Source: a virus
IMG/VR virus record: IMGVR_UViG_3300042340_000507
Coordinates: 62,001 to 126,000 of that record
Length of the DNA stretch: 64,000 bases
Reading direction: 5' to 3' (one strand)
Shown here: piece by piece, positions 14,286 through 62,290 of the stretch
How the letters are laid out: each line of letters starts with the position of its first letter
Numbering within the stretch: the first letter of the stretch is position 1
Program-made: the position numbers and the translations under genes
The notes under the pieces: model-generated
The model's input: only the letters and a program-made list of their open reading frames with translations
Databases searched by the model: none
What the model was told of the DNA's origin: nothing

Positions 14286-15203
14286 TTAGGCGGTAGTAGA
14301 TAAGTCTTTGACCTCAATGTTTTGGGCAAAATCTAGAGCTTTTCTGGTACCCTCTCCGATAATTCCGGCATCTACATTATTTCCTGGACCCGCATTGGCA
14401 TTGTTAACTGCTCTAACTGCAGTTTTTAAATCTTGAAAATCGTTCTCGTTGGAGTTGGAATACTTCTCCTTGATAGTTGGGTTGTTCAAAGTGATCTTAA
14501 AGAAGAGGGCTGCTACTTCGGCGGCAATTTTTGAATTCTTTTCTAAAGTTTCAGGATTAGCTACTAGATCAACATTAGTTCCAGCTTTTTTGAGTAAGTC
14601 TGTGTATACTCGGTAGTTTGCTTTCCCTGTGAGCCCGTTGTATCCTCTACCTCGATATTTCCAGCCGTCACCTGGCTGATCGTTGCCTAGATCCTTACCC
14701 GTACTAGTTGGACAATCTACGCCGTATACTCTATCCCAGAATTTAGCATCATCCTTTCTTAATTCTTCAATCTGAGCATCTGTTAGATCCTTGACCCTCC
14801 GTCCGAAAACATCTCTAATCCTACTAGCCGGTGTGTTTCTATAAGAAATTTCAGCAACGCTGGGGTTGAACCCGCTTTCTTTATTCACAACTCCCAAGAC
14901 CGCTCTTTGGACGTAAGGGTTTGTGAGACCGTGTTTATTGAGAGCTTCTACGAGCTCTTGCATTGCCTGCTTTTGATTAGCAGGGGCACTGGGCAGAATT
15001 AATTCTCCCGATACAGGAGATTCAGTATCAGAAGCTTTAGAAGCTGAAACTAATCCCGAATCGGAAGTGATGGTGGATCCAAAAGAGCTTCTAATTTCGG
15101 AATCCATCCATTTGTCAAAAGATTCCTTCCCCCTCTCTGAGTTCGATTTTGGTGTATTTTCATACAAGTCCCTAAAAGATTTGAGATATTTCATTTTTTT
15201 CAT
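14286..15203 (-). CDS. Endolysin, GH19/chitinase-like lysozyme with capsid-targeting-like N-terminus
   Basis: The 305-residue protein starts MKKMKYLKSFRDLYE, which ends in an LxE site like the T4 internal-protein targeting peptide, followed by a low-complexity Ser-rich linker to about residue 70. The catalytic part (about 75-275) has VLGVVNKESGFNPSVAE with the catalytic-type Glu, and DGWKYRGRGYNGLTGKANY, the YRGRGxxxLTG signature of GH19-like phage lysozymes. It would cut peptidoglycan. An N-terminal processing signal instead of a secretion signal suggests it may be carried in the virion for entry rather than acting only at lysis (inference). Confidence 0.75.
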   Translation of the reverse strand: MKKMKYLKSFRDLYENTPKSNSERGKESFDKWMDSEIRSSFGSTITSDSGLVSASKASDTESPVSGELILPSAPANQKQAMQELVEALNKHGLTNPYVQRAVLGVVNKESGFNPSVAEISYRNTPASRIRDVFGRRVKDLTDAQIEELRKDDAKFWDRVYGVDCPTSTGKDLGNDQPGDGWKYRGRGYNGLTGKANYRVYTDLLKKAGTNVDLVANPETLEKNSKIAAEVAALFFKITLNNPTIKEKYSNSNENDFQDLKTAVRAVNNANAGPGNNVDAGIIGEGTRKALDFAQNIEVKDLSTTA

Positions 15204-15270
15204 TCTTTTGTTCTAACTTTGAGATTTCTGTTGAAAGCCCTTGTTTTAATGTATAACGAGGGGGTCGGTC

Positions 15271-15278
15271 TATATATC
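15271..15278 (-). promoter_or_regulatory. T4-late-like promoter element GATATATA
   Basis: GATATATA (GGATATATAGAC in context) on the minus strand, 67 bases upstream of the endolysin start. It matches the element recurring before virion-type genes in this window. Confidence 0.4.
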
Positions 15279-15307
15279 CACAAGATAGTGCACACTTTTC
15301 ATGTAGA

Positions 15308-16093
15308 CTACCAGTTTTCTAGACTGGGGTAGTACGTATCGCTATCAATGAACTGGTAAAGAAATGCATTTTCTCTAATTCTTGCTTCCATGTTTCTAAC
15401 TTTCTGGTGATGATCCGACATTGACAGAAATTCCCGGGTTACCATGGGCCAAATGGTGTAATTGTGAATATTTGTTTCAGGTGATGTAACGAAATGGTCA
15501 AAATCTTTTATACCAACAACTGTGTCCCTCTTCTCGATATTCGCTTCTATCTTGTCAACAATGGTTCTTCTGAATATCCCAAAATTCAGGGTCGAGGCTG
15601 TGCCCAATGGTTTTGCTAGATGGTCTGTTAAGATCTCGATCCTGCCTATAAAATAGTGGTTCCCGATAAGACAATCCCAATCCTCAGGCAGGTCTTCAAA
15701 AGCTAAACGAATTTTATCCATAGCTCCTGCAACGAGATACGAATCATCTTCCATAATAATAATGGTTTCTTCATCCTTTAGATGCTCAGTCAGACAAGTT
15801 GAGAAGGAGGCAAAAATTCCATCTACTGGGGATTTTTTTTCTAGGGCAGAAAATCTGGTGATCTGAAAATTGGCCAAAGAGTTCTGATTCAATTTCATGA
15901 AATTCTCCCATCTATCCTCTCTTCTGTCAAGGTTGATCACATAAACTGAAGTTGGGAATTGACAGGGATTTTTCTTGAATTCTTGGGAACTTAGACGGGA
16001 GTTTTGAATTTTTTGTAGATCCGATAACCTGTTTTTATTGGACATGATTCTGAAATACCCTTTGGAGGGTCCTGAAGAAAGAGGATTGTCCAT
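15308..16093 (-). CDS. Glycosyltransferase family 25 (LPS-type galactosyltransferase-like)
   Basis: The protein has 261 residues from ATG 16093, two bases after the previous stop; a start 18 bases earlier would overlap it. TSVYVINLDRREDRWENF is the GT25 opening motif, FSALEKKSP follows, and TIIIMEDDSYLV carries the E-D-D acidic metal site. Family members add sugars to surface glycans. It lies outside the main sugar cluster (21-34 kb) but probably works with it. Confidence 0.8.
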   Translation of the reverse strand: MDNPLSSGPSKGYFRIMSNKNRLSDLQKIQNSRLSSQEFKKNPCQFPTSVYVINLDRREDRWENFMKLNQNSLANFQITRFSALEKKSPVDGIFASFSTCLTEHLKDEETIIIMEDDSYLVAGAMDKIRLAFEDLPEDWDCLIGNHYFIGRIEILTDHLAKPLGTASTLNFGIFRRTIVDKIEANIEKRDTVVGIKDFDHFVTSPETNIHNYTIWPMVTREFLSMSDHHQKVRNMEARIRENAFLYQFIDSDTYYPSLENW

Positions 16094-35362: not shown

Positions 35363-37828
35363 ATGAAAAGAATATCCAAGAATTACAAAAAATTAAGATT
35401 ATTCGAATCTGAGGAAGAACTAAAAGTCCCAGATGATGAAAAGCTTTGGCAAGCATACGGTGAGGATATGACCAAAGCAGCGAAGGAGGGAGAGATAAAT
35501 GAAGTAATTGGAAGGGATAAGGAATTGGAACAGTTGCTTCGCATTCTGGCCAGGAAAACCAAGGATAATCCAGTTTTGGTTGGAGAGCCGGGCGTTGGAA
35601 AAACCGCTATTGTGGATAAGCTTGCTCTTTTAATGGCAAGCGATAAATGTCCCGGTTTTTTAAAGGGGAAAAAGTTAATAGATTTGACCTGGGCATTTAA
35701 AAAAATAGTTAATGGAGGTTATTTACCCCTTTTGGCCCGTGAAATTGAGGAAGATAACTTGATTATTTTTGTGGACGAACTCCATTCTCTACCTAAAGCA
35801 AGTTACGATGAACTCAAACCCTTTTTGGCTAAAGCCAAACTTCATATGATCGGTGGTTCCACTTATAGTGAATATGGTCAAACTATTGAGAAAGACGGAG
35901 CCATGGAAAGAAGATTTCAACCGATCAAAGTTGAAGAGCCTACCTACGAGGAATGCATGGAAATACTTAGAGAAATCCAAGAAAAATATGGGGATTGGCA
36001 TCATGTTAATTATTCACCAGAAGCCTTAGAATCCTTTTATAAACTATCTAAGCAGTATATTAAAGACCGATTTTTGCCAGATAAAGCTATCGACTTGATG
36101 GACGAATCCGGTGCACGAATTCGCATTAAAAATGCCCCGGATGCGGAGGTTGCGAATCTAGAAAAGAAAAATTTAGAACTCCTAGACCGGATCAGGCAAA
36201 AGACGGCAGAAGGTGACTATGATGCTGCTGCAGATCTATCAGATGAAAAAGAAAAGATAGAGAGTCGGCTTGAAAAAATGGCTGCGAAAGGTCAAATGGG
36301 ACCTAAAATTACCGTCACTAAAGAAATGGTGGAAAAACTAGTGGCAGATAAAACAGGGATTCCTGTTGAAACGATGAAAAAGGGCAGTAAGGCAATCCTA
36401 AAAGGAATGTCAAGCAGACTGAAATCAAAAGTTATCGGTCAAGACGAGGCGGTAGAGACCGTTGTTAGAACAATTAAAAGAAACAGGTCGGGTCTTAAAG
36501 ACCCTAATAGACCTGAAGGGGTATTTTTATTCGTGGGCCCTACTGGGACAGGTAAAACCTATTTGGTGAAAAAATTGGCTGAGGAGCTTTTTGGATCTAG
36601 GGAATCTAAATTGATTAGGATTGATATGAATGAATATTCGGAGGCTCATACAGGATCTAAATTGTTTGGATCACCTCCCGGTTATGTAGGTTATTCGGAA
36701 GGAGGCAAACTAACAGAGCAAGTCAGAAGAAACCCTTATTCGGTAATTTTGCTAGATGAGATCGAAAAAGCAAACCCTCAAGTTATACAATCCCTGCTAG
36801 GGGTGCTAGAAGATGGAAGGATGACGGACGGGCAAGGGAGAACGGTTGACTTTACAAACTGTGTTATTATCATGACTTCTAATGTGGGATCAAAAACAGG
36901 ATCTAAAAAGGTTAAATCAAAGGAACCCAGAAAAGCGATTGGTTTTTTGGTTAAAGATGAACCAGAAGATGAAACAAAACAGACTGGAGCAGAATCACCT
37001 GAGGAAATCAAAGCAAGAGTCGATGCAGCGATCAAAAAAGAGTTTTCGCCCGAATTTATTAATAGAATAGATGATATTGTTATTTTTCAGTCAATAGACC
37101 AAGAATCAATAAAAAAGATTGCAGAAAAAGAGCTCGAGAAGGTGGCAGATAGGATTAAAAATACCCAAGACATTAATCTGACTTGGGGAACTTCGGTTTA
37201 CAAGTTGTTACTTAAACACGGATTTGACCCTGAATATGGGGCTAGACCCCTTAGAAGAGCAGTGGAGAAATATATCAAGGACCCTCTAGCCAATTTTATA
37301 ATCGAGGAAGAGATTGAGGAAGGATCCAACCTCAAAATTGATTACGATTCCTTGGCAGATGAGTTAGTCATTAACGGAAAGAAAATTTCAGAGTTATCTG
37401 AATCTAGACTCAGAAAAATCCACAAAAGTTTTTCTTTGTTCGAATCTACAAGTCCTAGAAGAATCAATAGTTTTTCAGAATTTAGCGATAGATTAGACGA
37501 GGCGGAAACAGAAAGGGAGAAAGAAGAGGAAAAGGGAAAACCAGCTCCTTTGCCTAAACCACTGCCTAAACCACTGCCTAAACCTACGCCTAAACCACAG
37601 CCTAAGCCTACTCCTAAACCTACACCCAGTGAGGATGAAGATGAGGATGAGGATTTTGATCCAGATGCAGAACCGGTCCGAAGAATAACTCCTCATCCGT
37701 CAATTGCACCACGAATTAAAGTTCCTTCTCATGCTCCTGGACCCCAAGCAATAAAGAAAAAAGCTTCAGAGATGGATGTGATCAAAAGGTACATATCAGA
37801 ACTCAAAAAAAGAAAACCATTTTACTAA
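35363..37828 (+). CDS. Two-domain Clp-type AAA+ ATPase with capsid-targeting-like N-terminus and Pro-rich tail
   Basis: The protein has 821 residues. It starts MKRISKNYKKLRLFESEEE with an LxE site at residue 15, then lacks the Clp N-domain. First AAA module: GEPGVGKT (74-81), IIFVDELHSL. Middle coiled coil is short (RIRQKTAEGDYDAAADLSDE), as in ClpA/ClpC types rather than full ClpB. Second module: GPTGTGKT (about 392-399), VILLDEIEKAN, RIDDIVIF, ARPLRRAVEKY. After about residue 690 comes SFSLFESTSPRRINSFSEF, a repeat of the N-terminal motif, then a PKP repeat (about 728-755) and an acidic run. It would unfold or disaggregate proteins. The terminal motifs suggest packaging in the head; no ClpP-loop (IGF/L) was identified with confidence. 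Confidence 0.88.
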   Translation: MKRISKNYKKLRLFESEEELKVPDDEKLWQAYGEDMTKAAKEGEINEVIGRDKELEQLLRILARKTKDNPVLVGEPGVGKTAIVDKLALLMASDKCPGFLKGKKLIDLTWAFKKIVNGGYLPLLAREIEEDNLIIFVDELHSLPKASYDELKPFLAKAKLHMIGGSTYSEYGQTIEKDGAMERRFQPIKVEEPTYEECMEILREIQEKYGDWHHVNYSPEALESFYKLSKQYIKDRFLPDKAIDLMDESGARIRIKNAPDAEVANLEKKNLELLDRIRQKTAEGDYDAAADLSDEKEKIESRLEKMAAKGQMGPKITVTKEMVEKLVADKTGIPVETMKKGSKAILKGMSSRLKSKVIGQDEAVETVVRTIKRNRSGLKDPNRPEGVFLFVGPTGTGKTYLVKKLAEELFGSRESKLIRIDMNEYSEAHTGSKLFGSPPGYVGYSEGGKLTEQVRRNPYSVILLDEIEKANPQVIQSLLGVLEDGRMTDGQGRTVDFTNCVIIMTSNVGSKTGSKKVKSKEPRKAIGFLVKDEPEDETKQTGAESPEEIKARVDAAIKKEFSPEFINRIDDIVIFQSIDQESIKKIAEKELEKVADRIKNTQDINLTWGTSVYKLLLKHGFDPEYGARPLRRAVEKYIKDPLANFIIEEEIEEGSNLKIDYDSLADELVINGKKISELSESRLRKIHKSFSLFESTSPRRINSFSEFSDRLDEAETEREKEEEKGKPAPLPKPLPKPLPKPTPKPQPKPTPKPTPSEDEDEDEDFDPDAEPVRRITPHPSIAPRIKVPSHAPGPQAIKKKASEMDVIKRYISELKKRKPFY

Positions 37829-39460: not shown

Positions 39461-39991
39461 TTAAATCAGAGAACGGTTGACTGTTCGGTTACTCACCCCA
39501 CCTACACCTGGGTAGGAAGAGTACATGTTTTTAGGATCTTTGATGGTGTTGTCCGTTGGAGAATGTGTATTTTCAGTCAGGTCCATGTGCTTTTTGATGA
39601 AACGATAAAGTCTTTGGCATTCATCATCGATATCCGCCAAATCCAATTCACTTCCTCCCCATCTGATGGAAGGGTCTTGTGGATCGCACATAACAGACAG
39701 ATTTCTAGGTCCCAGATGGCAAATTAAAGCCGGATATTCTCCACTGATGTCTCTGACGTTGGAGATATAACCTTGATAGGGAGGATTTTCAATTTCTTTG
39801 TAAATTTGTCCTAATCTTTCCCGATCCTTGCTTGATTCAATACCAAACAGGCTTTTTGTTTTTCTTTTCATGGTTTGTAACATGCCTGGGGGTTGGTACC
39901 TTTTGTAGCCATAGCCGGCATCTTTCCATCCCTCCTGTAAAGGATCAGAAGATTCTGGAGTAAAATTGTCGTAAGAGATAATATTTTTCAT
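39461..39991 (-). CDS. Hypothetical protein with capsid-targeting-like N-terminus
   Basis: The start chosen is ATG 39991 (MKNIISYDNFTPESSDPLQEG), as the F-x...L-x-E opening matches the repeated N-terminal motif of this window; an upstream start at 40021 overlaps thioredoxin. 176 residues, Pro/Tyr-rich start, then a helix-rich core (SELDLADIDDECQRLYRF). No family. Confidence 0.5.
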   Translation of the reverse strand: MKNIISYDNFTPESSDPLQEGWKDAGYGYKRYQPPGMLQTMKRKTKSLFGIESSKDRERLGQIYKEIENPPYQGYISNVRDISGEYPALICHLGPRNLSVMCDPQDPSIRWGGSELDLADIDDECQRLYRFIKKHMDLTENTHSPTDNTIKDPKNMYSSYPGVGGVSNRTVNRSLI

Positions 39992-40311: not shown

Positions 40312-40638
40312 TTAGTAAACAATTGTTTGGGTCATATCGGGATTGGTCCGGTAGATAATTTCAGGACCCGGGGACATAATAACTGACATACCATCAGACA
40401 GAGTTTGAAGACTCTGAATGAAATTCTGAACGTCTTCTTTTTTAGAAGAGGGAAAGTTAAAGTGGGTCATCACATCTTTAACTAATTCATCTAAAGAAGA
40501 TTCAAAATCTCCCGTGTCATGAAAATTCATGTATTTTTCGTATTTTTTAACGAAATCTTTGATTTCTTCCTGTTGGACTTCACTGAGAGACAGATTTGAA
40601 ACAAAATCGTCGAATTCTAGAATTTTTTTCTTATACAT
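40312..40638 (-). CDS. Small helical protein with capsid-targeting-like N-terminus
   Basis: Start at ATG 40638 (MYKKKILEFDDFVSNLSLSE), directly behind a GATATATA element; the longer frame to 40668 would begin inside that promoter. 108 residues, helical, ending NPDMTQTIVY. F-D-D-F and L-S-E match the putative targeting/processing motif. Confidence 0.55.
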   Translation of the reverse strand: MYKKKILEFDDFVSNLSLSEVQQEEIKDFVKKYEKYMNFHDTGDFESSLDELVKDVMTHFNFPSSKKEDVQNFIQSLQTLSDGMSVIMSPGPEIIYRTNPDMTQTIVY

Positions 40639-41386: not shown

Positions 41387-42853
41387 TTAAGAAAATTCAA
41401 TGCCAAGATGGGGTTTGCCTTTGGCTTTCAAAGGTCTATAACCTTTAATCTCCTCGGTGACGACAAAGGCTTTGTGTGGATTAACCATTACCCCCATTTT
41501 TTTCATCAGGCCTCTGCTGGCCAGGAATGGAGTGCTTTTTTGGACCCTATCCGTGGGAGCAACTTTTACATCCGAGATCTTTACCCCGTTGAGCATGACG
41601 TCTAGCAGAATAATAGGTCTCTTGCTTTTATCTCTACCCACTTCCGTATCGGTGTAACCAACAATGTCGCTGGTAAATTCTTTGCCCCCGATTTTCCACT
41701 TCAGCTGATTTCCTACTTCTTTCGTTTCATCTGCCTGAATCGATGAGGCACTGGAGCCATTTCCAGTGTCGAATTTGGCAACAAGCTTTCCTATCTCTGG
41801 GATCTCAATCGTCTCTAAATAACCAACCTCCATCCTAGAGTAGATCCAATTCTTTTTATTGATGACATAATCGATGACGTCCCCCACAATGGGTCTTCCT
41901 ATGGCCTGAGAGATGCCTTCTGTTCCAGGCGAGGAATTAACCTCCAGAATATACGGCTCTTTCGTTTTTTTATCGATCATGATGTCTACCCCGCACCAAT
42001 GGCTACCGACAGAATTAGCAGCCCGACAGGCTAAATCGGCAATTTTATCATCTATATTATAGGCAGAAACTTTACCTCCTAGAGAGTAATTGGTTCTGAA
42101 ATCCTTTTTTACTGCTTCTCTTTTCATGGATCCAAGAATAATGCAATTGCTTGGTTTGGTGATTAAAGGGTCAAATCTTTTGAGGATGACCTGAATTCTC
42201 AAATCAAAGTTCGAGTCAATTTTTTCCTGAATAAGAATTTCCTTTTCGGGATCCAATTTGGCAATCGTTTGATACACAGATTTCAGAGAGGCGTAAGAAT
42301 CAACAATTGAAACCCCAATGCCCTGAGTGCCCGAGAGCAACTTCATTACTACAGGAAACTGACCACCTATTTGTTCCAAGGCAGTATCCAGATTTTCTTC
42401 CCCGTTCACCAGGGCATATCTGGGAACTGGAAGTTCATTCTCTTCCAACACCTTTGAGGTTAAGAATTTACTCTCACACACCTCGATAGATTCCAGAGAA
42501 TTGACACAGAAATAACGGGATGCTTCTAATTCTCTCATGATCTGTTTGGTCAGAGAATTGGAAATAACCCCTCGTCTAGGAATAATAGCGGTCACATCAG
42601 GATTTATGAAAATTTCTCTTTTGTCCCCTGAGGTCTCCCGGAGTAGATGTCCATTATAGATTTTTTCAAGCTGCACATTGTTGATGTTGACAACGTAACA
42701 AGGGATACCCCTTTTTTGGCATTCCTCCAGGAAGGATTTGGACGTCGGACTGGGTTTTACCGTGCCTGAGAGGATCAGGAGTTCAACTCCTTTTTCTTCT
42801 TTAGATTCGTTCAAGAAGTTGCAAAAATTTAACACGGCGGGTAGTGAATTCAT
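41387..42853 (-). CDS. RimK-like ATP-grasp ligase fused to retropepsin-like (RimB-type) protease
   Basis: The 488-residue protein starts MNSLPAVLNFCNFLNESK (F-x-x-F...N-E). An N-terminal pre-ATP-grasp domain has ILSGTVKPSPTSK; the ATP-grasp part (about 105-325) has VVMKLLSGTQGIGVS (Gly-rich loop), EILIQEKID and GVDIMIDKKT...ILEVNSSPG, as in RimK. From about 345: EIGKLVAKFDTGNGSSASS contains the D-T-G aspartic-protease signature, and the rest matches the RimB/ATP-dependent zinc protease type. RimK adds glutamate residues to proteins and RimB trims poly-glutamate; here both activities are joined. Behind a late-like promoter and with a targeting-like start, it may be a virion protein acting on host ribosomes or enzymes. 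Confidence 0.8.
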   Translation of the reverse strand: MNSLPAVLNFCNFLNESKEEKGVELLILSGTVKPSPTSKSFLEECQKRGIPCYVVNINNVQLEKIYNGHLLRETSGDKREIFINPDVTAIIPRRGVISNSLTKQIMRELEASRYFCVNSLESIEVCESKFLTSKVLEENELPVPRYALVNGEENLDTALEQIGGQFPVVMKLLSGTQGIGVSIVDSYASLKSVYQTIAKLDPEKEILIQEKIDSNFDLRIQVILKRFDPLITKPSNCIILGSMKREAVKKDFRTNYSLGGKVSAYNIDDKIADLACRAANSVGSHWCGVDIMIDKKTKEPYILEVNSSPGTEGISQAIGRPIVGDVIDYVINKKNWIYSRMEVGYLETIEIPEIGKLVAKFDTGNGSSASSIQADETKEVGNQLKWKIGGKEFTSDIVGYTDTEVGRDKSKRPIILLDVMLNGVKISDVKVAPTDRVQKSTPFLASRGLMKKMGVMVNPHKAFVVTEEIKGYRPLKAKGKPHLGIEFS

Positions 42854-44546: not shown

Positions 44547-45362
44547 ATGCAAAAGGAGAACCCCATTCAAAGTTTTAAAATTTTCGAGGCAAAAAAAGGA
44601 GATCGGGCAGCTGGCACAAGATTGTCCAGAAAGCAAACAGAAATCTTAAATAAACACGTTGTTGGCACCTGGGAAATGAACAGGAAAACTGACAGGGTGG
44701 ACATCACAGGCAATTTTTATCTTTCTGAACCTTTTAATCAGACCCGGGAAATTGATATTTTCAAGGGGATCGGATTTGGCAAGGTGACCGGGGTTTTTTA
44801 TTGCACTAGAAATTTTTTTCAAGATCTAGAGGGATTTCCACAAGAAGTTCAAGGAAGTTTCAACTGTAGCGATAACTCTTTGACCTCCTTGCAGGGAGGA
44901 CCTACTAAAATAGGGAAGAATTTCTCTTGCAACAACAACAATCTTAAAGATCTAGTTGGGGGTCCTGTTGAAGTTGGTGGGCAGTACTTGGCCTTTGGTA
45001 ATCCCTTAACCAGTTTGGTAGGAGCTCCAGTTAAATTGAAGAAAGGTTTTTACTCCGATTTGGTCGATTTTAATGAAGGTAAATGGAATTATCTAGGTTG
45101 GATACAAGCCTTAGAAGAAGCTAAATCCAAAAATTTTACCCGTATTGAAGCTCTGATTTCAACCCTTCCTTTTTTAGATGTAAATTTCTTGAAGAATTAT
45201 ATTGTCGATAATCCAGATCGCATGGTGGATCTAGCTATGTTTTGGGAATATCCAGAAGTTGCCAATTTCAGACGGGAGCTAGAAAAAGTTCTAGATCTCA
45301 ATACGAAGAAAAAAGTGAAAATTCTGAGCAATATGAGGGGATATTTCTCTACTTTTCGATAA
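44547..45362 (+). CDS. Leucine-rich-type repeat protein with capsid-targeting-like N-terminus
   Basis: The protein has 271 residues. It starts MQKENPIQSFKIFEAKKG (I-F-E site). About residues 65-165 carry repeats of about 21 residues (NSLTSLQGGPTKIGKNFSC, NPLTSLVGAPVKLKKGF) related to those at 54-57 kb, followed by a helical C-terminal domain with LGWIQALEEAKSKN and FREL-type end shared in outline with those paralogues. Base composition is AT-rich like the rest of the phage, so this looks like the older copy. Last 14 bases overlap the convergent clamp gene. Confidence 0.6.
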   Translation: MQKENPIQSFKIFEAKKGDRAAGTRLSRKQTEILNKHVVGTWEMNRKTDRVDITGNFYLSEPFNQTREIDIFKGIGFGKVTGVFYCTRNFFQDLEGFPQEVQGSFNCSDNSLTSLQGGPTKIGKNFSCNNNNLKDLVGGPVEVGGQYLAFGNPLTSLVGAPVKLKKGFYSDLVDFNEGKWNYLGWIQALEEAKSKNFTRIEALISTLPFLDVNFLKNYIVDNPDRMVDLAMFWEYPEVANFRRELEKVLDLNTKKKVKILSNMRGYFSTFR

Positions 45363-48177: not shown

Positions 48178-48234
48178 GATTTTAATTTTTCAGATTGTAG
48201 CAGCCCTGCAGATAAGAAGTTTCCCCTTGAGCCG

Positions 48235-49305
48235 TTAATTAATTGAATCTAGATCTAAAAGAACCAATTCGATCTGATCTTGGCCGGCATCTTTCAATTT
48301 CTTGATGATCTCTTTCATGTCTTTTTTGTACTGGGTGGCAAGACAGCCACTGCTAATGTTATCGACGGTATCTATATCAGCTCCTTGATGAATGTTGATT
48401 CCAAATTCACCTTTTTCTTCATTGCCCGGTGAAAAAGTTTTAAATGTTGCCTGACTTTCAGAATCGACTGGCGTGTATCTATGAACCGTGACTGGTTCTG
48501 CCTGGATTAATGCATCCTCTTTCCCTTTGTGCTTACCCAATTTATAGGTATAAACACCCGGTTGAATGATGGCTAGCCCCTTGGGGTTAATGCCGGAAGC
48601 ATTGCCCCTACTAGCCATTAAATTCCGATAACTTTTTACCATAAAGGCTGGCCCAGGTGTGGTGGTGGCTGGATAAAATTGGACTGTTTTATTGGAGTCG
48701 GGACCTAGTAAGAAAAGTGCATCGGTGAAACGATTGGGCATTTTTTTCTTCACCACCAGGTTGTTTCTCAGAGCAACAAGAGTGTATTTATCGGACGGGT
48801 ACTTGATTCCTTCTTTTTTCAATAGTTGGCTGAGATCACTCCAATCCATTTCTTTGGCCTCACTAAATTCGTAAGATCCTCCGTCTGGTAACTTACCGAA
48901 ATCTATATCTCCACTTTTTCCCATTCCCATTCTATCGAGCATATCTTGCAATTCTTTTTCCTTTGAGATATTGCCGGAAGGTGCATTTCTTGATCCAGTT
49001 CCTTCATCAGATAAATATTTGCTGTCTAGGAGACCTTTCTCGGACATCTGCTTTCGATAATCTTCATCCGTTTTTTCTAAAAATCTCTTGCCCATACTGG
49101 TAGACCAAAACATATTCTGTAAATCTTTACCTGACTTGATAATTGGTTCTTTTAGACCACCGCTTTCTCCCCCTGTTTTGGGAATCAGTGGGGCAACTTC
49201 CCCAATGGCATCTTTTAAAATATCCTGAATTTTTTCATTCTCTGTTATTCTGTCCGTTGACAGACCGAGAAAATCTTGAAAATTCAGAACTTTAGATGAT
49301 TTCAT
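48235..49305 (-). CDS. YkuD/L,D-transpeptidase-like protein with capsid-targeting-like N-terminus
   Basis: The 356-residue protein starts MKSSKVLNFQDFLGLSTD and reaches an I-T-E site at residue 22. Residues 60-180 are low-complexity and helical. Near the C-terminus GEFGINIHQGADIDTV is followed by ISSGCLATQ, the H...S-x-G-C pattern of L,D-transpeptidases (normally S-H-G-C). They cross-link or trim peptidoglycan peptides. Behind a GATATATA element, so a virion cell-wall enzyme is plausible. Confidence 0.6.
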   Translation of the reverse strand: MKSSKVLNFQDFLGLSTDRITENEKIQDILKDAIGEVAPLIPKTGGESGGLKEPIIKSGKDLQNMFWSTSMGKRFLEKTDEDYRKQMSEKGLLDSKYLSDEGTGSRNAPSGNISKEKELQDMLDRMGMGKSGDIDFGKLPDGGSYEFSEAKEMDWSDLSQLLKKEGIKYPSDKYTLVALRNNLVVKKKMPNRFTDALFLLGPDSNKTVQFYPATTTPGPAFMVKSYRNLMASRGNASGINPKGLAIIQPGVYTYKLGKHKGKEDALIQAEPVTVHRYTPVDSESQATFKTFSPGNEEKGEFGINIHQGADIDTVDNISSGCLATQYKKDMKEIIKKLKDAGQDQIELVLLDLDSIN

Positions 49306-49321
49306 GAGGGATTTTTTTCTT

Positions 49322-49329
49322 TATATATC
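49322..49329 (-). promoter_or_regulatory. T4-late-like promoter element GATATATA
   Basis: Minus strand GGGATATATAAAG, 16 bases upstream of the ATG at 49305. A short GGGAT/ATCCC inverted repeat surrounds the leader. Confidence 0.5.
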
Positions 49330-49331
49330 CC

Positions 49332-49694: not shown

Positions 49695-49695
49695 C

Positions 49696-50739: not shown

Positions 50740-50744
50740 ACAGT

Positions 50745-51346: not shown

Positions 51347-51381
51347 AAGTGCATTTTATATGACAGGTTGACTAAAAAATT

Positions 51382-52308: not shown

Positions 52309-52319
52309 GATAGAAGGTT

Positions 52320-54206: not shown

Positions 54207-54214
54207 GATATATA
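54207..54214 (+). promoter_or_regulatory. T4-late-like promoter element GATATATA
   Basis: CAGATATATAAGGCGTG: the element ends four bases before the GTG start at 54219; nearly identical copies precede the next two paralogues. Confidence 0.5.
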
Positions 54215-54218
54215 AGGC

Positions 54219-55202
54219 GTGAAACACCTCCAATCCTTTTCCCTGTTCGAAGCTCGGAAGACTTCAGATCTGACCCAAAAGCAAAAGACTTTCCTGACCA
54301 AATACACGCAAGGGACCTGGTCGGTCAACCGACAGACCGGTCTGGTCGATGTGGAAGGAGATTTTGACTGTAGTTACAGCGGACTGAGGTCTCTATCGGG
54401 CATCTCGTTCGGACATGTCAGTGGGAATTTCTCCTGTGCCGGCAACGATCTGACCTCCCTGGCCGGGGCACCCCAGACGGTGGGTGGGTATTTCTCCTGC
54501 GACAACAACCAGCTGACCTCCCTGGTCGGGGCACCCCAGACGGTGTGTGGGAGTTTCTTCTGTCAAGGCAACCATCTGACCTCCCTGGCAGGGGCACCTC
54601 AGACGGTGGGTGGGGTTTTCGACTGTTCCGGCAACCAGCTGACGACCCTGGCCGGGGCACCTCAGAAGGTAAATAGGAGTTTCGGCTGTTCCGGCAATCG
54701 ACTGATCTCTCTGGCCGGGGCACCTCAGACGGTGGGTGGGAATTTCTACTGCGACAACAACCAGCTGACCTCCCTGGTCGGGGCACCTCAGACGGTGGGT
54801 CGGGATTTCTGGTGTTCCCACAACCGGCTGACGACCCTGGTCGGGGCACCTCAGACGGTGGGTGGGTATTTCTTCTGCGACTCTTTCAAACTCCGGAGTG
54901 GGGAATGGAATCCCCAGGGCTGGTTGGCCATTCTGGCCACTGGAGATAGAAAAGCCCGGAGGCTGATTGTGACCCTGCCCATGTTCGATGCCGGCTTCTG
55001 GCTGCAGAAACTGAAGGGAGACTTGAAGAAAGACGGTCAGGTGCTTCTGCAGCTGGCAGACCTCTGGGATAAGTCAGGCTGGGAGGAGCAGAGACAGGAG
55101 ATCGAACAGAGACTCAGTCCTGAGCAGCTTCGGGTCATCAAGGCCCTAAAGACCAAATTGGGCTACGTCAATCCCTGGAAAGACTTTGACGGGATTGTCT
55201 AG
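54219..55202 (+). CDS. 21-residue-repeat protein, paralogue 1 (7 repeats), capsid-targeting-like start
   Basis: The 327-residue protein begins with GTG because a stop lies just upstream. MKHLQSFSLFEARKTS (L-F-E site) is followed by a helical linker, then seven units of 21 residues such as NFSCAGNDLTSLAGAPQTVG (about residues 70-216), and a C-terminal domain (about 220-327) with AGFWLQKLKGDLKKDGQVLL. The repeat resembles leucine-rich-repeat-type coils with Cys and Leu at fixed places. Likely binds another protein. The DNA is GC-rich compared with the flanking genes. Confidence 0.7.
   Translation: MKHLQSFSLFEARKTSDLTQKQKTFLTKYTQGTWSVNRQTGLVDVEGDFDCSYSGLRSLSGISFGHVSGNFSCAGNDLTSLAGAPQTVGGYFSCDNNQLTSLVGAPQTVCGSFFCQGNHLTSLAGAPQTVGGVFDCSGNQLTTLAGAPQKVNRSFGCSGNRLISLAGAPQTVGGNFYCDNNQLTSLVGAPQTVGRDFWCSHNRLTTLVGAPQTVGGYFFCDSFKLRSGEWNPQGWLAILATGDRKARRLIVTLPMFDAGFWLQKLKGDLKKDGQVLLQLADLWDKSGWEEQRQEIEQRLSPEQLRVIKALKTKLGYVNPWKDFDGIV
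54426..54866 (+). repeat. Tandem 63-bp repeats, 7 units
   Basis: Seven tandem copies of a 63-bp unit encode LTSLxGAPQTVGGxFxCxxN. The units share long identical stretches such as GGGGCACCTCAGACGGTGGG, so copy number can change by recombination. Confidence 0.85.
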
Positions 55203-55203
55203 A

Positions 55204-55211
55204 GATATATA
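55204..55211 (+). promoter_or_regulatory. T4-late-like promoter element GATATATA
   Basis: TAGAGATATATAAGGCGTG, directly after the stop of paralogue 1 and four bases before the GTG of paralogue 2. Confidence 0.5.
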
Positions 55212-55215
55212 AGGC

Positions 55216-55998
55216 GTGAAACACCTCCAATCCTTTTCCCTGTTCGAAGCCCGGAAGACTTCAGGCCTGACCCAAAAGCAAAAGACTTTCCTGACCAAAT
55301 ACACGCAAGGGACCTGGTCGGTCAACCAGCAGACCGGTCTGGTCGATGTGAAAGGAGATTTTGACTGTAGTTACAAAAGACTGAAGTCTCTGCGGGGAAT
55401 CTCGTTCGGACATGTCAGTGGGGATTTCTGGTGTTTCAGAAACCAGCTGACGACCCTGGCCGGGGCACCCCAGACGGTGGGTGGGAGTTTCTTCTGTGGC
55501 GGCAACCAGCTGAAGACCCTGGCCGGGGCACCCCAGACGGTGGGTGGGGATTTCTACTGTCAAGGCAACCAGCTGACTTCCCTGGTCGGGGCACCCCAGA
55601 CGGTAAATGGGGATTTCTACTGTTTCAGAAACCAGCTGACGACCCTGGCCGGGGCACCCCAGACGGTGAGGGAGGGTTTCTACTGCGACTCTTTCGAAGT
55701 CCGAAGTGGGAAATGGAATCCCCAGGGCTGGACCGAGATTCTGGCCAAAAAAAATAGCAAAGCCCGGAGCCTGATTGTGATCCTGTTCGATGCCGGCTTC
55801 TGGCTGCAGAAACTGAAGGGAGATCTGAAGAAAGACGGCCAGGTGCTCCTGCAGCTGGCAGACCTCTGGGATGAACCAGGCTGGGAGGAGCAGAGACAGA
55901 AGATCGAACAGAGACTCAGTCCTGAGCAGCTTCGGGTCATCAAGGCCCTAAAGACCAAATTGGGCTACGTCGATCCCTGGAAGGACGGGATTGTCTAG
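55216..55998 (+). CDS. 21-residue-repeat protein, paralogue 2 (4 repeats)
   Basis: The 260-residue protein has an N-terminus (MKHLQSFSLFEARKTSG) and C-terminal domain nearly identical to paralogue 1; differences are concentrated in the repeats, of which only four are present (about residues 70-153). The C-terminal part has lost a few residues (VILFDAGFW against VTLPMFDAGFW). GTG start. Confidence 0.7.
   Translation: MKHLQSFSLFEARKTSGLTQKQKTFLTKYTQGTWSVNQQTGLVDVKGDFDCSYKRLKSLRGISFGHVSGDFWCFRNQLTTLAGAPQTVGGSFFCGGNQLKTLAGAPQTVGGDFYCQGNQLTSLVGAPQTVNGDFYCFRNQLTTLAGAPQTVREGFYCDSFEVRSGKWNPQGWTEILAKKNSKARSLIVILFDAGFWLQKLKGDLKKDGQVLLQLADLWDEPGWEEQRQKIEQRLSPEQLRVIKALKTKLGYVDPWKDGIV
55423..55674 (+). 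repeat. Tandem 63-bp repeats, 4 units
   Basis: Four units of the same 63-bp repeat as in the flanking paralogues. Confidence 0.85.
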
Positions 55999-55999
55999 A

Positions 56000-56007
56000 G
56001 ATATATA
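56000..56007 (+). promoter_or_regulatory. T4-late-like promoter element GATATATA
   Basis: TAGAGATATATAAGGGCGTG before paralogue 3; one extra G compared with the previous copy shifts the spacing to five bases. Confidence 0.5.
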
Positions 56008-56012
56008 AGGGC

Positions 56013-57116
56013 GTGAAACACCTCCAATCCTTTTCCCTGTTCGAAGCCCGGAAGACTTCAGATCTGACCCAAAAGCAAAAGACTTTCCTGACCAAATACA
56101 CGCAAGGGACCTGGTCGGTCAACCCAGAGACAGGGCTAGTGGATGTAAAGGGAAGTTTTGCTTGTGGGGGTAAAAGATTAAAGAGCTTACAGGGCATCTC
56201 GTTCGGACATGTCAGTGGGAATTTCTACTGTTCCGTCAACCAGCTGACCTCCCTGGCAGGGGCACCCCAGAAGGTGAGTGGGGATTTCTCCTGTTTCAGA
56301 AACCAGCTGACCTCTCTGGTCGGGGCACCTCAGACGGTGGATGGGCATTTTTACTGTGGCGGCAACCGGCTGACGACCCTGGTCGGGGCACCCCAGACGG
56401 TGGATGGGGATTTAGACTGTTCCTACAACCAGCTGACGACCCTGGCCGGGGCACCTCAGACGATGGATGGGCATTTCTTCTGTTCCTACAACCAGCTGAC
56501 GACCCTGGTCGGGGCACCTCAGACGGTGGGTGGGTATTTCTCCTGTTCCAGAAACCAGCTGACCTCCCTGTCAGGGGCACCCCAGAAGGTGGGTGGGAAT
56601 TTCTCCTGTTCCGGCAACCAGCTGACCTCCCTGGCAGGGGCACCCCAGACGGTGGATGGGTATTTCTCCTGTTCCTACAACCAGCTGACGACCCTGGCCG
56701 GGGCACCTCAGACGGTGGGTGGGAATTTCTACTGCGACAATAACCGGCTGACCTCCCTGGTCGGGGCACCACAGACGGTGGGTGGGATTCTCCGGTGCGA
56801 CTCTTTCACACTCCAAAGTGGGGCATGGAATCCCCTGGGCTGGACCAAGATTCTGGCCACTGGAGATAGCGAAGCCCGGAGCCTGATTGTGACCCTGCCC
56901 ATGTTCGATGCCGGCTTCTGGCTGCAGAAACTGAAGGGAGACCTGAAGAAAGACGGCCAGGTGCTCCTGCAGCTGGCAGACCTCTGGGATAAGTCAGGCT
57001 GGGAGGAGCAGAGACAGGAGATCGAACAGAGACTCAGTCCTGAGCAGCTTCGGGTCATTAAGGCCCTGAAGACCAAATTGGGCTACGTCGATCCCTGGAA
57101 GGACGGGATTGTCTAG
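56013..57116 (+). CDS. 21-residue-repeat protein, paralogue 3 (9 repeats)
   Basis: The 367-residue protein has the same start (MKHLQSFSLFEARKTSD) and C-terminal domain. Nine 21-residue units (about residues 70-258), for example DLDCSYNQLTTLAGAPQTMD. Between residues 37 and 60 the codons differ from the other paralogues (ETGLVDVKGSFACGGKR), suggesting a mosaic. GTG start. Confidence 0.7.
   Translation: MKHLQSFSLFEARKTSDLTQKQKTFLTKYTQGTWSVNPETGLVDVKGSFACGGKRLKSLQGISFGHVSGNFYCSVNQLTSLAGAPQKVSGDFSCFRNQLTSLVGAPQTVDGHFYCGGNRLTTLVGAPQTVDGDLDCSYNQLTTLAGAPQTMDGHFFCSYNQLTTLVGAPQTVGGYFSCSRNQLTSLSGAPQKVGGNFSCSGNQLTSLAGAPQTVDGYFSCSYNQLTTLAGAPQTVGGNFYCDNNRLTSLVGAPQTVGGILRCDSFTLQSGAWNPLGWTKILATGDSEARSLIVTLPMFDAGFWLQKLKGDLKKDGQVLLQLADLWDKSGWEEQRQEIEQRLSPEQLRVIKALKTKLGYVDPWKDGIV
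56220..56786 (+). repeat. Tandem 63-bp repeats, 9 units
   Basis: Nine units of the 63-bp repeat. Together with the arrays at 54426 and 55423 this gives copy numbers of 7, 4 and 9 in adjacent genes. Confidence 0.85.
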
Positions 57117-57135
57117 AGATATAACATAGGTAAAG

Positions 57136-57143
57136 TATATATA
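57136..57143 (+). promoter_or_regulatory. T4-late-like promoter element TATATATA
   Basis: AAGTATATATAGATAATG, with the ATG at 57148 four bases downstream. Confidence 0.45.
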
Positions 57144-57147
57144 GATA

Positions 57148-58029
57148 ATGAAAGAAAAAATAAGAAGGATTCAAAACTTCAGAGATTTTAGCAACTTGAA
57201 TAGTTCCTTTAATTTAGATTTAGTTCTGGAAAAAATGGGTCGAAGAAGCCCAGTTGAATTGGCAAATTTACTGGAAAAATCCATCAAAGGTCTAGGAACG
57301 GACGAAGAACTGTTGCTGAAAACTTTATTAGAAATTCCTGATTTGAAAACTCTGGGGGAAATTGATGCCATTTTTGCTAAATTTCCAGCCGTTTATTCAT
57401 ATAGAAGTGTTGGATCCCTTATTAATTCCGAGTTAGGTTTTTTTGATCAGAAAATAATCGATGAAATAAAAAAACACACGGATCAATTGAAAGTCACAAA
57501 TGACTTCTTACAAAAACAAGAAGAATCTCGTTTGAAGGACGAAAAAGTTAGAAGAACCGCGGAAGAAAGCATTAAATTGCACGAGGGTATTAAATATCAA
57601 ATTTACCGGGACTCTAGAAAAAATCTATCAATTGGAATTGGAATGAATCTAGAAAGATCGGATGCAGATACCAGGTTAAAGGAAATTGGGGCCAATCCAA
57701 AATTAATCAGGTCGGGAAAAGAGAAATTGAATGACAGTCAAATTCAGATTCTGTTTAAAAAAGACGTGGATAAAGCTATCGAAGATGCCAAATCTCTGGT
57801 TCCTGATTTGGGTCAACAGCCCTTACCGGTACAATGTGTTTTGATAGAAATGGCATTCAACCTCGGAAAGTCGGGCCTGTCCGAATTCAAAAAATTCTTA
57901 TCTCACATCCAAAACATGAATTACAAATTGGCTTCCCAAGAGATGCTCAATTCAACCTGGGCCAAGCAAGTGGGGAACAGAGCAAAAGAGCTGGCCAAAA
58001 GAATTGAAACTTACGAAGTAAAAAAATAA
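57148..58029 (+). CDS. Annexin-like repeat fused to T4-type lysozyme (GH24)
   Basis: The 293-residue protein starts MKEKIRRIQNFRDFSNLN. Residues about 30-105 read like an annexin repeat: SPVELANLLEKSIKGLGTDE, then LLLKTLLEIPD, SLINSELGFFDQKIIDEI. Residues about 130-293 are a T4-like lysozyme: IKLHEGIKYQIYRDSRKNLS gives E, D (+9) and S (+15) at the E11/D20/T26 positions of T4 lysozyme, with Ser replacing Thr26, then IEMAFNLGKSGLSEF and WAKQVGNRAKELAK. The T26-to-Ser change may alter activity. An annexin-like domain would bind membranes (calcium site not proven). Likely a virion peptidoglycan enzyme. Confidence 0.75.
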   Translation: MKEKIRRIQNFRDFSNLNSSFNLDLVLEKMGRRSPVELANLLEKSIKGLGTDEELLLKTLLEIPDLKTLGEIDAIFAKFPAVYSYRSVGSLINSELGFFDQKIIDEIKKHTDQLKVTNDFLQKQEESRLKDEKVRRTAEESIKLHEGIKYQIYRDSRKNLSIGIGMNLERSDADTRLKEIGANPKLIRSGKEKLNDSQIQILFKKDVDKAIEDAKSLVPDLGQQPLPVQCVLIEMAFNLGKSGLSEFKKFLSHIQNMNYKLASQEMLNSTWAKQVGNRAKELAKRIETYEVKK

Positions 58030-58037: not shown

Positions 58038-58601
58038 ATGAAAATACTGAACTTCGGAGAATTTAGGGATCAGATCAGTGAAAATCTGCAATATCACCTC
58101 CAAAATGATCTGACTCTAGCCACTAGCGTCTTTAGAATTGGCTCCGAAGCCTGGTACGGGGTAATAGATGAGACTAGACGCCTTTGGGAATCAAATTCGA
58201 TTGAATTAGACGACGACGACACTTTTTTGATTAGCACCGAACTGGGCCGAAGGGGAATCTTTGAAGGGAAAGAGGTGTGGCTGGATTTACCTCTCCCTGA
58301 AGAGGATCTGCACGAGGCAGAATATAAGGGCAGGAAGGTTTCTCTGAACAAACCTTTCAGAACCCCGGGTGCTCCTAGAAAATTTGGGGTTTACACTAAA
58401 AACGAGTCTGGTAACGTCGTTCTAGTTAGATTCGGCCAGCCAGGTATGAGAATAAGAAATGACGATCCTCAGAGATCAAAATCTTTTAGAGCAAGACACA
58501 ATTGTGATAACCCAGGTCCCAAATGGAAAGCCAGATACTGGTCCTGTAACGTGTCAAGATACAGAAAACTACTGGGCATTAAATCTTCAAGTCCATGGTA
58601 G
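58038..58601 (+). CDS. Phage conserved protein with F-R-A-R-H motif, capsid-targeting-like N-terminus
   Basis: The 187-residue protein starts MKILNFGEFRDQISENLQ (I-S-E site). The C-terminal half has KFGVYTKNESGNVVLVRFG followed by DDPQRSKSFRARHNCDNPG and KARYWSCNV, a Cys/His-rich segment widely seen at the end of proteins in T4-like marine phages near head genes. Probably a structural or head-maturation protein. Function not established. Confidence 0.6.
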   Translation: MKILNFGEFRDQISENLQYHLQNDLTLATSVFRIGSEAWYGVIDETRRLWESNSIELDDDDTFLISTELGRRGIFEGKEVWLDLPLPEEDLHEAEYKGRKVSLNKPFRTPGAPRKFGVYTKNESGNVVLVRFGQPGMRIRNDDPQRSKSFRARHNCDNPGPKWKARYWSCNVSRYRKLLGIKSSSPW

Positions 58602-60859: not shown

Positions 60860-60944
60860 AGAAAATTATTTCTCATTATATTCTAGGAAGAGAAAAAATT
60901 TCAGGAATGACGAATAAAAAGTGAGAATTTTTTCTCAAAGAGGT

Positions 60945-61634
60945 TTACACTCGCTTGATATCTCTAATCTTTTGAAGCATGAGGCCTCTACCTGCATAAA
61001 AGGTAAAATCCGCCTCCATCTTCCAATTTCCTTCTTTGGTGTGAGCCATCAACTCTAGATTTTGAACTAGATCCTGCGGTTCAAGTGAAACACACTTCTG
61101 GTCGGAAGAAGATTCAAAGTTCATCTTTGCCATTTTATTACCAGTCCAGATAACAGCCCTCAAGTTGCTGATTTGGACATCCAGAATCTTGACCACTTGA
61201 TGATCTTGAAGAAGTTCTAATTTAAAACAGGGTTTTCTGGAGTTGCCATGAGAGGTCAAAGTCAATAAACTGTGGGATTTACTTGCCAGTAAAGAAGGGA
61301 TGGAGGGATTGTAAAGAGAAAAGATAGGGTAACAACCGGGATACTTGTGTCTTTTGAATACAATCCGCTGTCCTTTCAGGATATCCTCCAACTGGGAGAG
61401 CATATGGTCGACCGAGGTGAAATTCTTGGACTTGAGGTAGACCACGGGATTTCTACTCAAAGAAACCCGATAGGGAGAAATTTCAATCCCCAGAGACAAC
61501 CACCGTGTTTCTAAAAATTTGGCAATCTCTTCAAGATGATTCCGATCCGAGGTGGATGTTTTAGATTTATGGGTCAGAGAATTCTTAAACTTATCGATGA
61601 AATCATCAACCAAGGAAAACTTGTAGGCAGACAT
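60945..61634 (-). CDS. Hypothetical protein
   Basis: The 229-residue protein starts MSAYKFSLVDDFIDKFKNS; helical start then beta-rich body (VVYLKSKNFTSVDHML, ADFTFYAGRGLM). No family recognised; lies between the glycosyltransferase and adenylate kinase. Confidence 0.45.
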   Translation of the reverse strand: MSAYKFSLVDDFIDKFKNSLTHKSKTSTSDRNHLEEIAKFLETRWLSLGIEISPYRVSLSRNPVVYLKSKNFTSVDHMLSQLEDILKGQRIVFKRHKYPGCYPIFSLYNPSIPSLLASKSHSLLTLTSHGNSRKPCFKLELLQDHQVVKILDVQISNLRAVIWTGNKMAKMNFESSSDQKCVSLEPQDLVQNLELMAHTKEGNWKMEADFTFYAGRGLMLQKIRDIKRV

Positions 61635-61657
61635 AGAAAAAAATTAGAACTGAAAAA

Positions 61658-62290
61658 TTATTCTGAATCAGGGGTCCGGTTTAGTTCTAAGGCCTTCACG
61701 ATCTTCTTGTAAACGCTCTCGCTACCTTTGGCGGCATTATATTTTTTCAGTTTTCTGTTTTTTGTGTAGAGATCAATCAGGGGTGCAGTTTTTTCTTCAT
61801 AGTCTCTGAATCTTTTAGCCACCACCTCTGGATCTTTGTCGTCCTTCCGGTCTTCTCTTTCCGCCCTGGCAGTAATTCTGCCTTTGGCCGTTTCTTCGTC
61901 TATATCCAGATAGATGGTGTGGCTCAGGCCCAAGCCCATTTTTCCGAGCAAAGAATCTAACAGAGAGGCTTGTTTAACGGTCCGGGGGAATCCGTCAATA
62001 ATGATCCCATCATCAGGATCAATTTTCTTCAGTTCCCTCCGGATCATCTTTACAACTGTCTGATCGTCGATGAAATCACCCCGTTCAACTTTTTTCTTGA
62101 TCTCCGGGTTTTTTGATTTCCTGAGCAATTCTCCGGTTGAAATGTGGTGGAAGCCTTGCCTATCTGCCAGTTTTTCGGAAAAAGTTCCTTTACCTGATCC
62201 CGGAGGTCCCATCACAACTAGAATTTTTCCTTGAGAATCCGGCAATTCTCTTTCTATTAAAAAATCTGAGAAATTCTTAACTAAATCCAT
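61658..62290 (-). CDS. adk: Adenylate kinase with capsid-targeting-like N-terminus
   Basis: The 210-residue protein starts MDLVKNFSDFLIERELPD (L-I-E site at residue 13) ahead of the kinase. GPPGSGKGTFSEKLA is the P-loop, HHISTGELLR and IDGFPRTVKQA the AMP-binding motifs, GRITARAERED the LID region. It converts AMP and ATP to two ADP. The extra N-terminus is absent from cellular Adk, and a GATATATA element lies right before the ATG. Confidence 0.9.
   Translation of the reverse strand: MDLVKNFSDFLIERELPDSQGKILVVMGPPGSGKGTFSEKLADRQGFHHISTGELLRKSKNPEIKKKVERGDFIDDQTVVKMIRRELKKIDPDDGIIIDGFPRTVKQASLLDSLLGKMGLGLSHTIYLDIDEETAKGRITARAEREDRKDDKDPEVVAKRFRDYEEKTAPLIDLYTKNRKLKKYNAAKGSESVYKKIVKALELNRTPDSE

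Follow-up and report, generated by a model that had tools for sequence, protein, structure and literature searches.

We analysed a 64,000-nucleotide stretch of phage DNA (the window; positions 62001-126000 of the 177,044-base IMG/VR phage record IMGVR_UViG_3300042340_000507, here G000) and found that many proteins of this phage begin with a short tag, in which an aromatic-x-x-aromatic element is combined with [LI]-x-E. We hold with considerable confidence that these N-termini are removable propeptides like the capsid-targeting sequence (CTS) of the T4 internal proteins, and that the tagged cargo is trimmed, packaged and ejected. Going by the sequences, a role as prohead-targeting propeptides is very likely and cleavage by a protease fused to a scaffold-like region is likely; we infer that the tagged proteins are present in virions, and by analogy their injection into the host is plausible. 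This T4-like reading, put forward in an initial annotation of the window, is supported by a prohead protease on G001 (a 230,445-base contig of the same phage, which supplied the head region absent from G000), by separate conservation of the two tag elements and by a match to residues that matter in T4 IPIII. Mutational work on IPIII assigned residues 4 and 7 to targeting and residues 8 and 10 to processing, and gp21 is reported to cut after L/I-X-E (PMC9026906). The start MKTYQEFIAE, on which the annotation had based its comparison, was confirmed in the T4 record, where ipIII reads MKTYQEFIAE/A (here and below, a slash marks the cleavage site, known or predicted).

The 14 window genes to which the annotation had ascribed F-x-x-[FLY] and, usually, [LI]-x-E carry the following tags.

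15159..15203, minus strand: tag MKKMKYLKSFRDLYE/ of the endolysin-like gene 14286-15203 (phrog_181 endolysin, E=8e-24)
35363..35407, plus strand: weak N-terminal tag MKRISKNYKKLRLFE/, without FxxF, of the ClpC-type ATPase gene 35363-37828
37833..37880, plus strand: tag MSLKANFTKNFASFNE/ of gene 37833-38849, unknown product; strict pattern failed
39953..39991, minus strand: tag MKNIISYDNFTPE/ of gene 39461-40021, from an internal ATG; strict pattern failed
40579..40638, minus strand: tag MYKKKILEFDDFVSNLSLSE/ of gene 40312-40668, from an internal ATG
42806..42853, minus strand: tag MNSLPAVLNFCNFLNE/ of the RimK-like ATP-grasp ligase gene 41387-42853
44547..44588, plus strand: tag MQKENPIQSFKIFE/ of the repeat-protein gene 44547-45362
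49240..49305, minus strand: tag MKSSKVLNFQDFLGLSTDRITE/ of gene 48235-49305 (phrog_3000, unknown function)
54219..54251, plus strand: tag VKHLQSFSLFE/ of the repeat-protein gene 54219-55202
55216..55248, plus strand: tag VKHLQSFSLFE/ of the repeat-protein gene 55216-55998
56013..56045, plus strand: tag VKHLQSFSLFE/ of the repeat-protein gene 56013-57116
57148..57231, plus strand: long tag MKEKIRRIQNFRDF...LVLE/ of the phage lysozyme gene 57148-58029; strict spacing failed
58038..58082, plus strand: tag MKILNFGEFRDQISE/ of gene 58038-58601
62252..62290, minus strand: tag MDLVKNFSDFLIE/ of the adenylate kinase gene 61658-62290

All 14 segments exist where the annotation placed them. Its pattern, which we fixed beforehand in a strict form (F-x-x-[FLY], then [LI]-x-E with the glutamate at residue 10-22), was passed by only ten: 14286, 40312 (from the internal ATG), 41387, 44547, 48235, 54219, 55216, 56013, 58038 and 61658. 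F-x-x-[FLY] alone was found in 12 genes, the remaining two being Y-based. The starts of 39461 and 40312 require an internal ATG, and that of 44547 is an ATG one codon inside ORF 44544. Describing the 14 proteins as unrelated was too strong: 44547 and 54219 share homologues in a relative, while 54219 has clear paralogues in 55216 and 56013, so that these four form one repeat family and the 14 genes represent ~11 families. The tandem repeat-protein paralogues with identical tags (54207-57147) have a G+C content of 0.54 at 54-56 kb, against ~0.40 around them. One partial copy of the same family lies at the very start of the record (L005:119-1287), and the contig may therefore have broken in that gene family.

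Enrichment of the strict pattern was scored on mechanical longest ORFs (≥60 aa), using internal 25-residue segments of proteins and composition-preserving shuffles of N-termini (400 trials) as background. Within the window, 9/98 ORFs passed compared with 15/595 internal segments (p=3e-3); shuffles averaged 2.0 passes and reached 9 in 1/400. The enrichment over the rest of the genome that the annotation had called for was borne out in genes that it had not seen: in G000 outside the window 14/132 passed, compared with 17/1,099 segments (p=7e-7), and the shuffled N-termini there gave a mean of 2.9 and a maximum of 8. The parts of G001 not in G000 gave 4/90 versus 11/907 (p=0.04). Over all of G000, window included, together with the unique part of G001, 27 of 320 genes passed, compared with 43/2,601 internal segments; background would account for ~5 of the 320, leaving ~22 genes above expectation. 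The 27/320, 14/132 and 4/90 counts exclude L046, a locus which duplicates G000 sequence entirely.

Using the labels 'early' and 'late' as assigned from gene position and gene content, we found the strict pattern concentrated in the three regions taken as late (12/72 versus 13/597, p=1.7e-6) and not enriched in early genes (2/46) or tail genes (0/14). Some passers, L043:9969 and the two early genes among them, probably reflect chance. Among other phages, enrichment was seen in the relative G006 (7/98, p=0.006) and weakly in the 200-250 kb sample of the huge phage LR756502 (5/69, p=0.025), and was absent from MaF61 (0/90, in a sample of 91 of 168 kb), MA9V-2 (2/53) and T4 at 66-116 kb (3/59, p=0.08). 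Huge-phage samples were of 50 kb each, four from LR756502, one from LR745206 and three from LR756501. Three looser regular expressions, tried before these, gave weak or zero enrichment because they ruled out any overlap between [LI]-x-E and the aromatic pair. A second pattern (40/332 versus 122/2,619, some genes being counted twice via L046) was devised after inspection of the data and is therefore not relied on.

Comparison of orthologues indicates that the tag is made of two separable parts, aromatic-x-x-aromatic and [LI]-x-E, which are conserved separately with a linker of variable length between them. We used a two-part test (near the N-terminus, an aromatic pair and, with no fixed spacing, [LIVF]xE after it). 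Four tagged families of the head region passed in 29/33, 36/37, 35/45 and 7/20 distinct orthologues, compared with averages of 4.5, 3.9, 3.6 and 0.2 for their shuffled N-termini, and the capsid protein passed in 32/33. Untagged neighbours with at least 20 orthologues gave 0/53, 7/48 and 1/22; four further untagged neighbours, with 2-3 orthologues each, all gave 0, and two others had no orthologues. In the 7/20 family, the printed misses retain [LIV]xE and have mostly lost the first aromatic. A small tagged protein encoded right after the capsid genes (L039:7041-7301) keeps [LIV]xE in the orthologues seen, the first aromatic often being gone; its targeting may have drifted, or the body of the protein may take care of it.

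For the RimK-like protein 41387, 36 viral loci collapsed to 23 distinct N-terminal blocks, all of which (23/23) read [FY]xx[FY][LI]NE[AS], in a scan that had the tag peptide itself among its six search patterns. The N and E are invariant, an L stands two residues before the first aromatic in 21/23, and entropy is 0-0.93 bits at the six motif positions compared with up to 2.9 bits elsewhere. The tag codons differ synonymously between loci, and a DNA-level motif was dropped for that reason; export signal peptides were dropped by eye, the segments being short and ending in E. Adenylate kinase N-termini in three phages read NFSDFLIE/RELP, DFYGFLLE/REIP and KFDEFVHLHE/RELP, and the solved adenylate kinase fold aligns only from ~residue 20; the tag is therefore an added extension. 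Elsewhere in the window, orthologues or homologues read MKRLSKLYSKRLSE/A for 35363 (in G006), IYSFLSFNE/AVRVKDM for 37833 and MKHLISFRVYE/S for 54219, and that of 58038 retains FxxF (NFERF) with an ambiguous cleavage site. The tags of 48235 (only two loci, both 100% identical) and 61658 (five loci, four 100% identical and one 53%) are thinly tested, because loci are few and nearly all identical. No orthologue of 39461-40021 or 40312-40668 was found among the relatives compared.

The gp21-like protease that the annotation expected elsewhere in the genome, and whose absence would have refuted its reading, was found on G001. PF03420, PF07068 and PF07230 (S77, Gp23 and T4 portal) had no match in the window's own 177-kb record; this is explained by the absence from G000 of the head region, which lies on G001. 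We located G001 by a sheath search, its sheath being 100% identical to that of G000. The overlapping stretches compared are 99.8-100% identical, save one 105-base side match at 97%, and ~89 kb of G001 have no match in G000. The placements of the sheath and RimK-like genes fit a collinear overlap, in which case the phage would be ~266 kb. G001 encodes an S77 protease (phrog_207, E=1.1e-37; PF03420 above cut-off in 6/11 records, E 4e-11 to 6e-10), a portal (phrog_213, E=5e-59) and a Gp23 capsid protein (PF07068, E=1.6e-39). Protease motifs D79-H80-P81 and S135-S136-R137-A138, which we take to hold the catalytic His and Ser, are invariant in 27/27 aligned sequences. Near the capsid N-terminus, a candidate site YHSLNE/SAGAYQS is identical in this phage and three relatives (4/4); residues 9-18 of the same protein (L039:3520-5241) show an aromatic pair followed by I-I-E (FDTWAPIIE).

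The only named sheath match was Flavobacterium phage MaF61, besides three uncultured phages. Among 969 records, the protease found its best matches in uncultured huge phages and Prevotella Lak phages; lower-ranking ones came from phages of E. coli, cyanobacteria, Flavobacterium and Chryseobacterium. The host is likely a member of the Bacteroidota.

The protease is extended by a scaffold-like region in which a 14-residue unit with the core Y-S-E-Y-L-A-E is repeated 14 times in tandem. Among the best 80 of at least 484 related protease-bearing stretches, one of them this phage, which were retained for the repeat counts, 75 have an ORF with 8-15 repeats (at least five required). A separate T4 gp22-type scaffold was not found, the repeats being fused to the protease, and no profile search was aimed at gp22. 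Searching PDB with the protease-scaffold by phmmer returned nothing up to E=0.01, and an AlphaFold2 model from 27 sequences, with a long helix over the repeats, was too poor for use (mean pLDDT 52, pTM 0.27).

Each repeat has an [LIV]-x-E signature and resembles the T4 tag (Y-x-E-[YF]-[LI]-A-E). From this likeness we hypothesize that the tag is a mimic of a scaffold repeat. A pattern in the register of the repeat, [FY]xx[FY][LIVM]xE, occurs at 5/331 N-termini of G000 and G001 versus 4/3,429 (p=5e-4), and the scaffold-repeat profile places 5 N-termini in its top 20 (p=0.03), some genes being counted twice via L046 in both analyses. Huge phages with repeats show the register pattern as well: 7/51 near the protease of LR756501 (shuffles 0.1), with 2/59 and 3/75 in its two further samples (shuffles 0.2), 8/267 in LR756502 (0.6) and 2/58 in LR745206 (0.2). 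MaF61, whose protease fusion is without repeats, has none (0/90). Two results speak against mimicry. MA9V-2, with a protease fusion also lacking repeats, still has 2/53 register-type N-termini (shuffles 0.1), and repeats and tags are therefore not strictly coupled. The profile also ranks N-termini weakly, being significant again at 200 (p=0.02) and not at top 40-150, 400 or 1,000. A wider proposal is tentative, and we give it somewhat less than an even chance: the cargo tag would be a detached copy of the scaffold repeat, T4 Y-Q-E-F-I-A-E and F-x-x-F-L-N-E docking like Y-S-E-Y-L-A-E with one protease cutting both, so that any gene gaining a tag would become virion cargo. A lineage of phages ranging from large to huge (this one and many of the at least 484 protease-bearing stretches, with genomes up to 735 kb) might thus deliver tens or more enzymes at time zero.

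The sequence GATATATA, which we take to resemble the T4 late promoter, precedes many tagged genes. Its positions at tagged window genes are as follows.

54207..54214, plus strand: GATATATA before 54219
55204-55211, plus strand: GATATATA
56000-56007, plus strand: GATATATA
44535-44542, plus strand: GATATATA
62295-62302, minus strand: GATATATA upstream of a tagged window gene
49322-49329, minus strand: GATATATA upstream of a tagged window gene
42878-42885, minus strand: GATATATA upstream of a tagged window gene

In the window, 7/14 tagged genes have the element at most 60 nt upstream, as do 15/27 of the curated tagged genes beyond it (22/41 in total, on a list picked by eye which includes some genes without [LI]-x-E). 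By comparison it precedes 22/177 of the other non-early genes, 2/30 of those in the 14-35 kb cluster and none of the 76 early genes (0/76); its frequency predicts ~0.007 per gene by chance. Totals here that take in L046 count some genes twice. For the tagged set defined by pattern, with L046 excluded, the window gave 7/9 versus 4/88 (p=9e-7). The element also stands before the gene for the protease and before some further genes of virion type, such as L001:3726 (phrog_8510). This placement would fit late, head-stage expression, for example of adenylate kinase, which would otherwise be expected early.

These observations can be arranged into a sequence of events. Cargo genes would be switched on late together with the head genes, many from GATATATA. 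The aromatic-x-x-aromatic half of the tag would dock the cargo into a prohead core, which, going by gene content, may consist of the S77 protease fused to its repeat scaffold and a number of small tagged proteins whose genes directly follow that of the capsid. Once the Gp23-type shell closes, the protease would cut after [LI]-x-E at the sites seen in the tags, the capsid N-terminus and the scaffold repeats. Scaffold pieces would then exit and DNA enter, with the trimmed cargo remaining in the head: cell-wall enzymes, adenylate kinase, the RimK-like ligase, the Clp ATPase, repeat proteins and many unknowns. By analogy with T4, the cargo would be ejected with the DNA into the next host.

Several results weigh against reading all of these N-termini as capsid-targeting propeptides. 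Four of the 14 window genes fail the strict pattern: 35363 (Y-based), 37833 (SFNE), 39461 (YDNFTPE) and 57148 (E at residue 28). In the orthologue survey, whose 41 queries differ slightly from the promoter list, 13/41 genes had no orthologue among the relatives compared; L038:15151, L039:13020 and their orthologues keep the aromatics without [LI]-x-E. Nor is the site kept for L001:8322, whose orthologue is untagged, or for L001:13353, whose orthologue shows D there. The curated set of 41 is generous and some of its members are doubtful. Outside the window, the promoter association of the pattern-defined set is weaker (7/18 versus 26/197, p=0.01). The strict pattern is not enriched in the relatives G003 (3/85), G004 (3/91) and G007 (3/54), nor in LR745206 (2/58) and LR756501 (2/51). 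Finally, a Clp hexamer would be a large cargo for ejection through the tail tube.

One alternative accepts prohead-assembly propeptides and holds that many tagged proteins serve head assembly (chaperone, core or protease regulators) and are then removed or merely trapped, without being injected as effectors. Immediately after the capsid gene lie genes for several tagged proteins that by eye resemble core proteins, and Clp ATPases of jumbo phages have been suggested as translocases or virion-assembly aids (PMC7824862), which would suit Clp as an assembly chaperone. Adenylate kinase, a RimK-like ligase, lysozymes and peptidoglycan-binding proteins are nevertheless ill-suited as scaffold, and T4 Alt and IPI-III are reported to retain full copy number in the mature head (PMC9026906); we consider this alternative rather unlikely, though not negligible. 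Far less probable is that the N-terminal peptide is an address for another phage structure (tail, membrane or replication compartment) and [LI]-x-E is incidental. The docking partner in the prohead is indeed postulated, and the scaffold-repeat profile picks N-termini unconvincingly. Against such an address, orthologues keep [LI]-x-E next to the mature domain despite varying linker length, the capsid protein has the same conserved signature near its N-terminus, and the phage encodes the protease. That the tags are look-alikes selected by the reader from A+T-rich phage N-termini rich in K, F, L and E deserves next to no credence, even though 4/14 fail the strict pattern and single early genes pass (2/46). 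Composition-preserving shuffles, internal segments, untouched genes and orthologue conservation with synonymous codon change all contradict it. Chance is refuted for the set as a whole, and individual tags may still be due to it.

On the capsid-targeting reading, the candidates picked by eye number ~40 (41 on the curated list) and include recognizable enzymes. The gene identities proposed in the annotation stood for the Clp ATPase (35363), adenylate kinase (61658), the RimK-like protein (41387) and the lysozyme (57148). Its RimK/protease fusion fared less well, the C-terminal part of 41387 matching a putative Zn protease only below threshold (E=0.007). Outside the window, tagged genes encode a LysM protein (L006:13474) and peptidoglycan-binding proteins (L006:15762 and L001:9162, the latter also matching endolysin families). 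The remaining tagged proteins searched gave no informative match. The alignment of the Clp protein 35363-37828 to ClpC begins at ClpC residue 166, and a further feature lies near its C-terminus.

37430..37501, plus strand: two tandem tag-like copies, FSLFE/S...FSEFSDRLDE/A, at Clp residues 690-713

This pair is kept in the G006 orthologue (FSLFE/S...FSEFKSSRINE/A) and is followed by a proline-rich tail; by analogy, C-terminal processing like that reported for T4 Alt is possible.

Other genes were noted nearby. The ribonucleotide reductase large subunit is apparently split over two adjacent genes (window 62316-63980 and L001:41-1348), with the barrel domain in the window and an adjoining ORF that by eye looks like the N-terminal part. 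A glutamine synthetase-like gene (window 19193-20245; PF00120 E=1e-16, PF03951) lies near a run of genes at ~21-34 kb resembling, by eye, sugar- and methyl-transferases. The early region encodes two closely similar 149-aa proteins (936-1385 and 5285-5734; MKK[RQ]IYLDD[IV]RTP...). Topoisomerase-type proteins (PF00521; Toprim), DnaJ and a UvdE-type UV endonuclease occur together at 46813-54107, and a tail-region ORF of 3,486 aa (L003:9228-19688) has TPTPTQTPTNT repeats near its start.

To our knowledge, the injected proteins of huge phages are largely unknown, because nearly all of these phages are uncultured. A readable address label would make the delivered protein set predictable from sequence and then testable. 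Mimicry of a scaffold repeat would offer a concrete answer to how a CTS recognizes the core, and the tagged genes provide a natural catalogue of tags and cargo sizes, the Clp ATPase and RimK-like ligase included. The principle of varied CTS-borne cargo is already known, as a 2022 review proposed that the CTS lets T4-like phages package varied proteins (PMC9026906). The annotation's statement that a set of this breadth is not described was thus right in kind, with the concept already in print. In the accessible text of the open-access literature, with subscription papers and preprints mostly outside it, we found no description of a set this size, of huge-phage tags or of a tag-like repeat scaffold.

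The likeness to T4 IPI, IPII, IPIII and Alt extends from the short N-terminal tag, with aromatics three apart and [LI]-x-E before the mature domain, to the S77 protease, the Gp23-type shell and varied mature domains. T4 has four non-structural CTS cargo proteins, Alt and IPI-III, according to PMC9026906, whereas 27/320 genes pass the strict pattern here, with ~5 expected. The T4 core consists of gp22/gp67/gp68 with the gp21 protease, encoded with separate genes 21 (protease) and 22 (scaffold); here, one polypeptide combines the protease with tag-like tandem repeats.

phiKZ, 201phi2-1 and SPN3US likewise have many head or inner-body proteins with N-terminal propeptides cut after glutamate, and ejected cargo, with nine cleaved substrates reported in SPN3US and at least 19 in phiKZ and 201phi2-1 (PMC10052503). 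In contrast, SPN3US propeptides are mostly long (111-254 residues), and a short shared F-x-x-F tag is not described for these phages in the accessible portion of that source. Freshwater bS21 huge phages share a Bacteroidetes link, sizes of up to 331 kb, late co-expression and a 'prohead core scaffolding and protease' gene beside terminase, portal and capsid genes (PMC9723584). They differ in that the accessible portion of that paper describes no tag, and bS21 itself is speculated to be encapsulated. The uncultured phages LR756501/LR756503, LR756502 and LR745206 (634-735 kb) have the same protease, fused to ~10-12 YSEYxAE repeats in tandem, and their N-terminal tags, of which FxxFINE is an example, cluster in the 50-kb samples. 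What is new is a protease fused to 14 tandem tag-like YSEYLAE repeats, and the presence of the same fusion with similar tags in huge phages of up to 735 kb.

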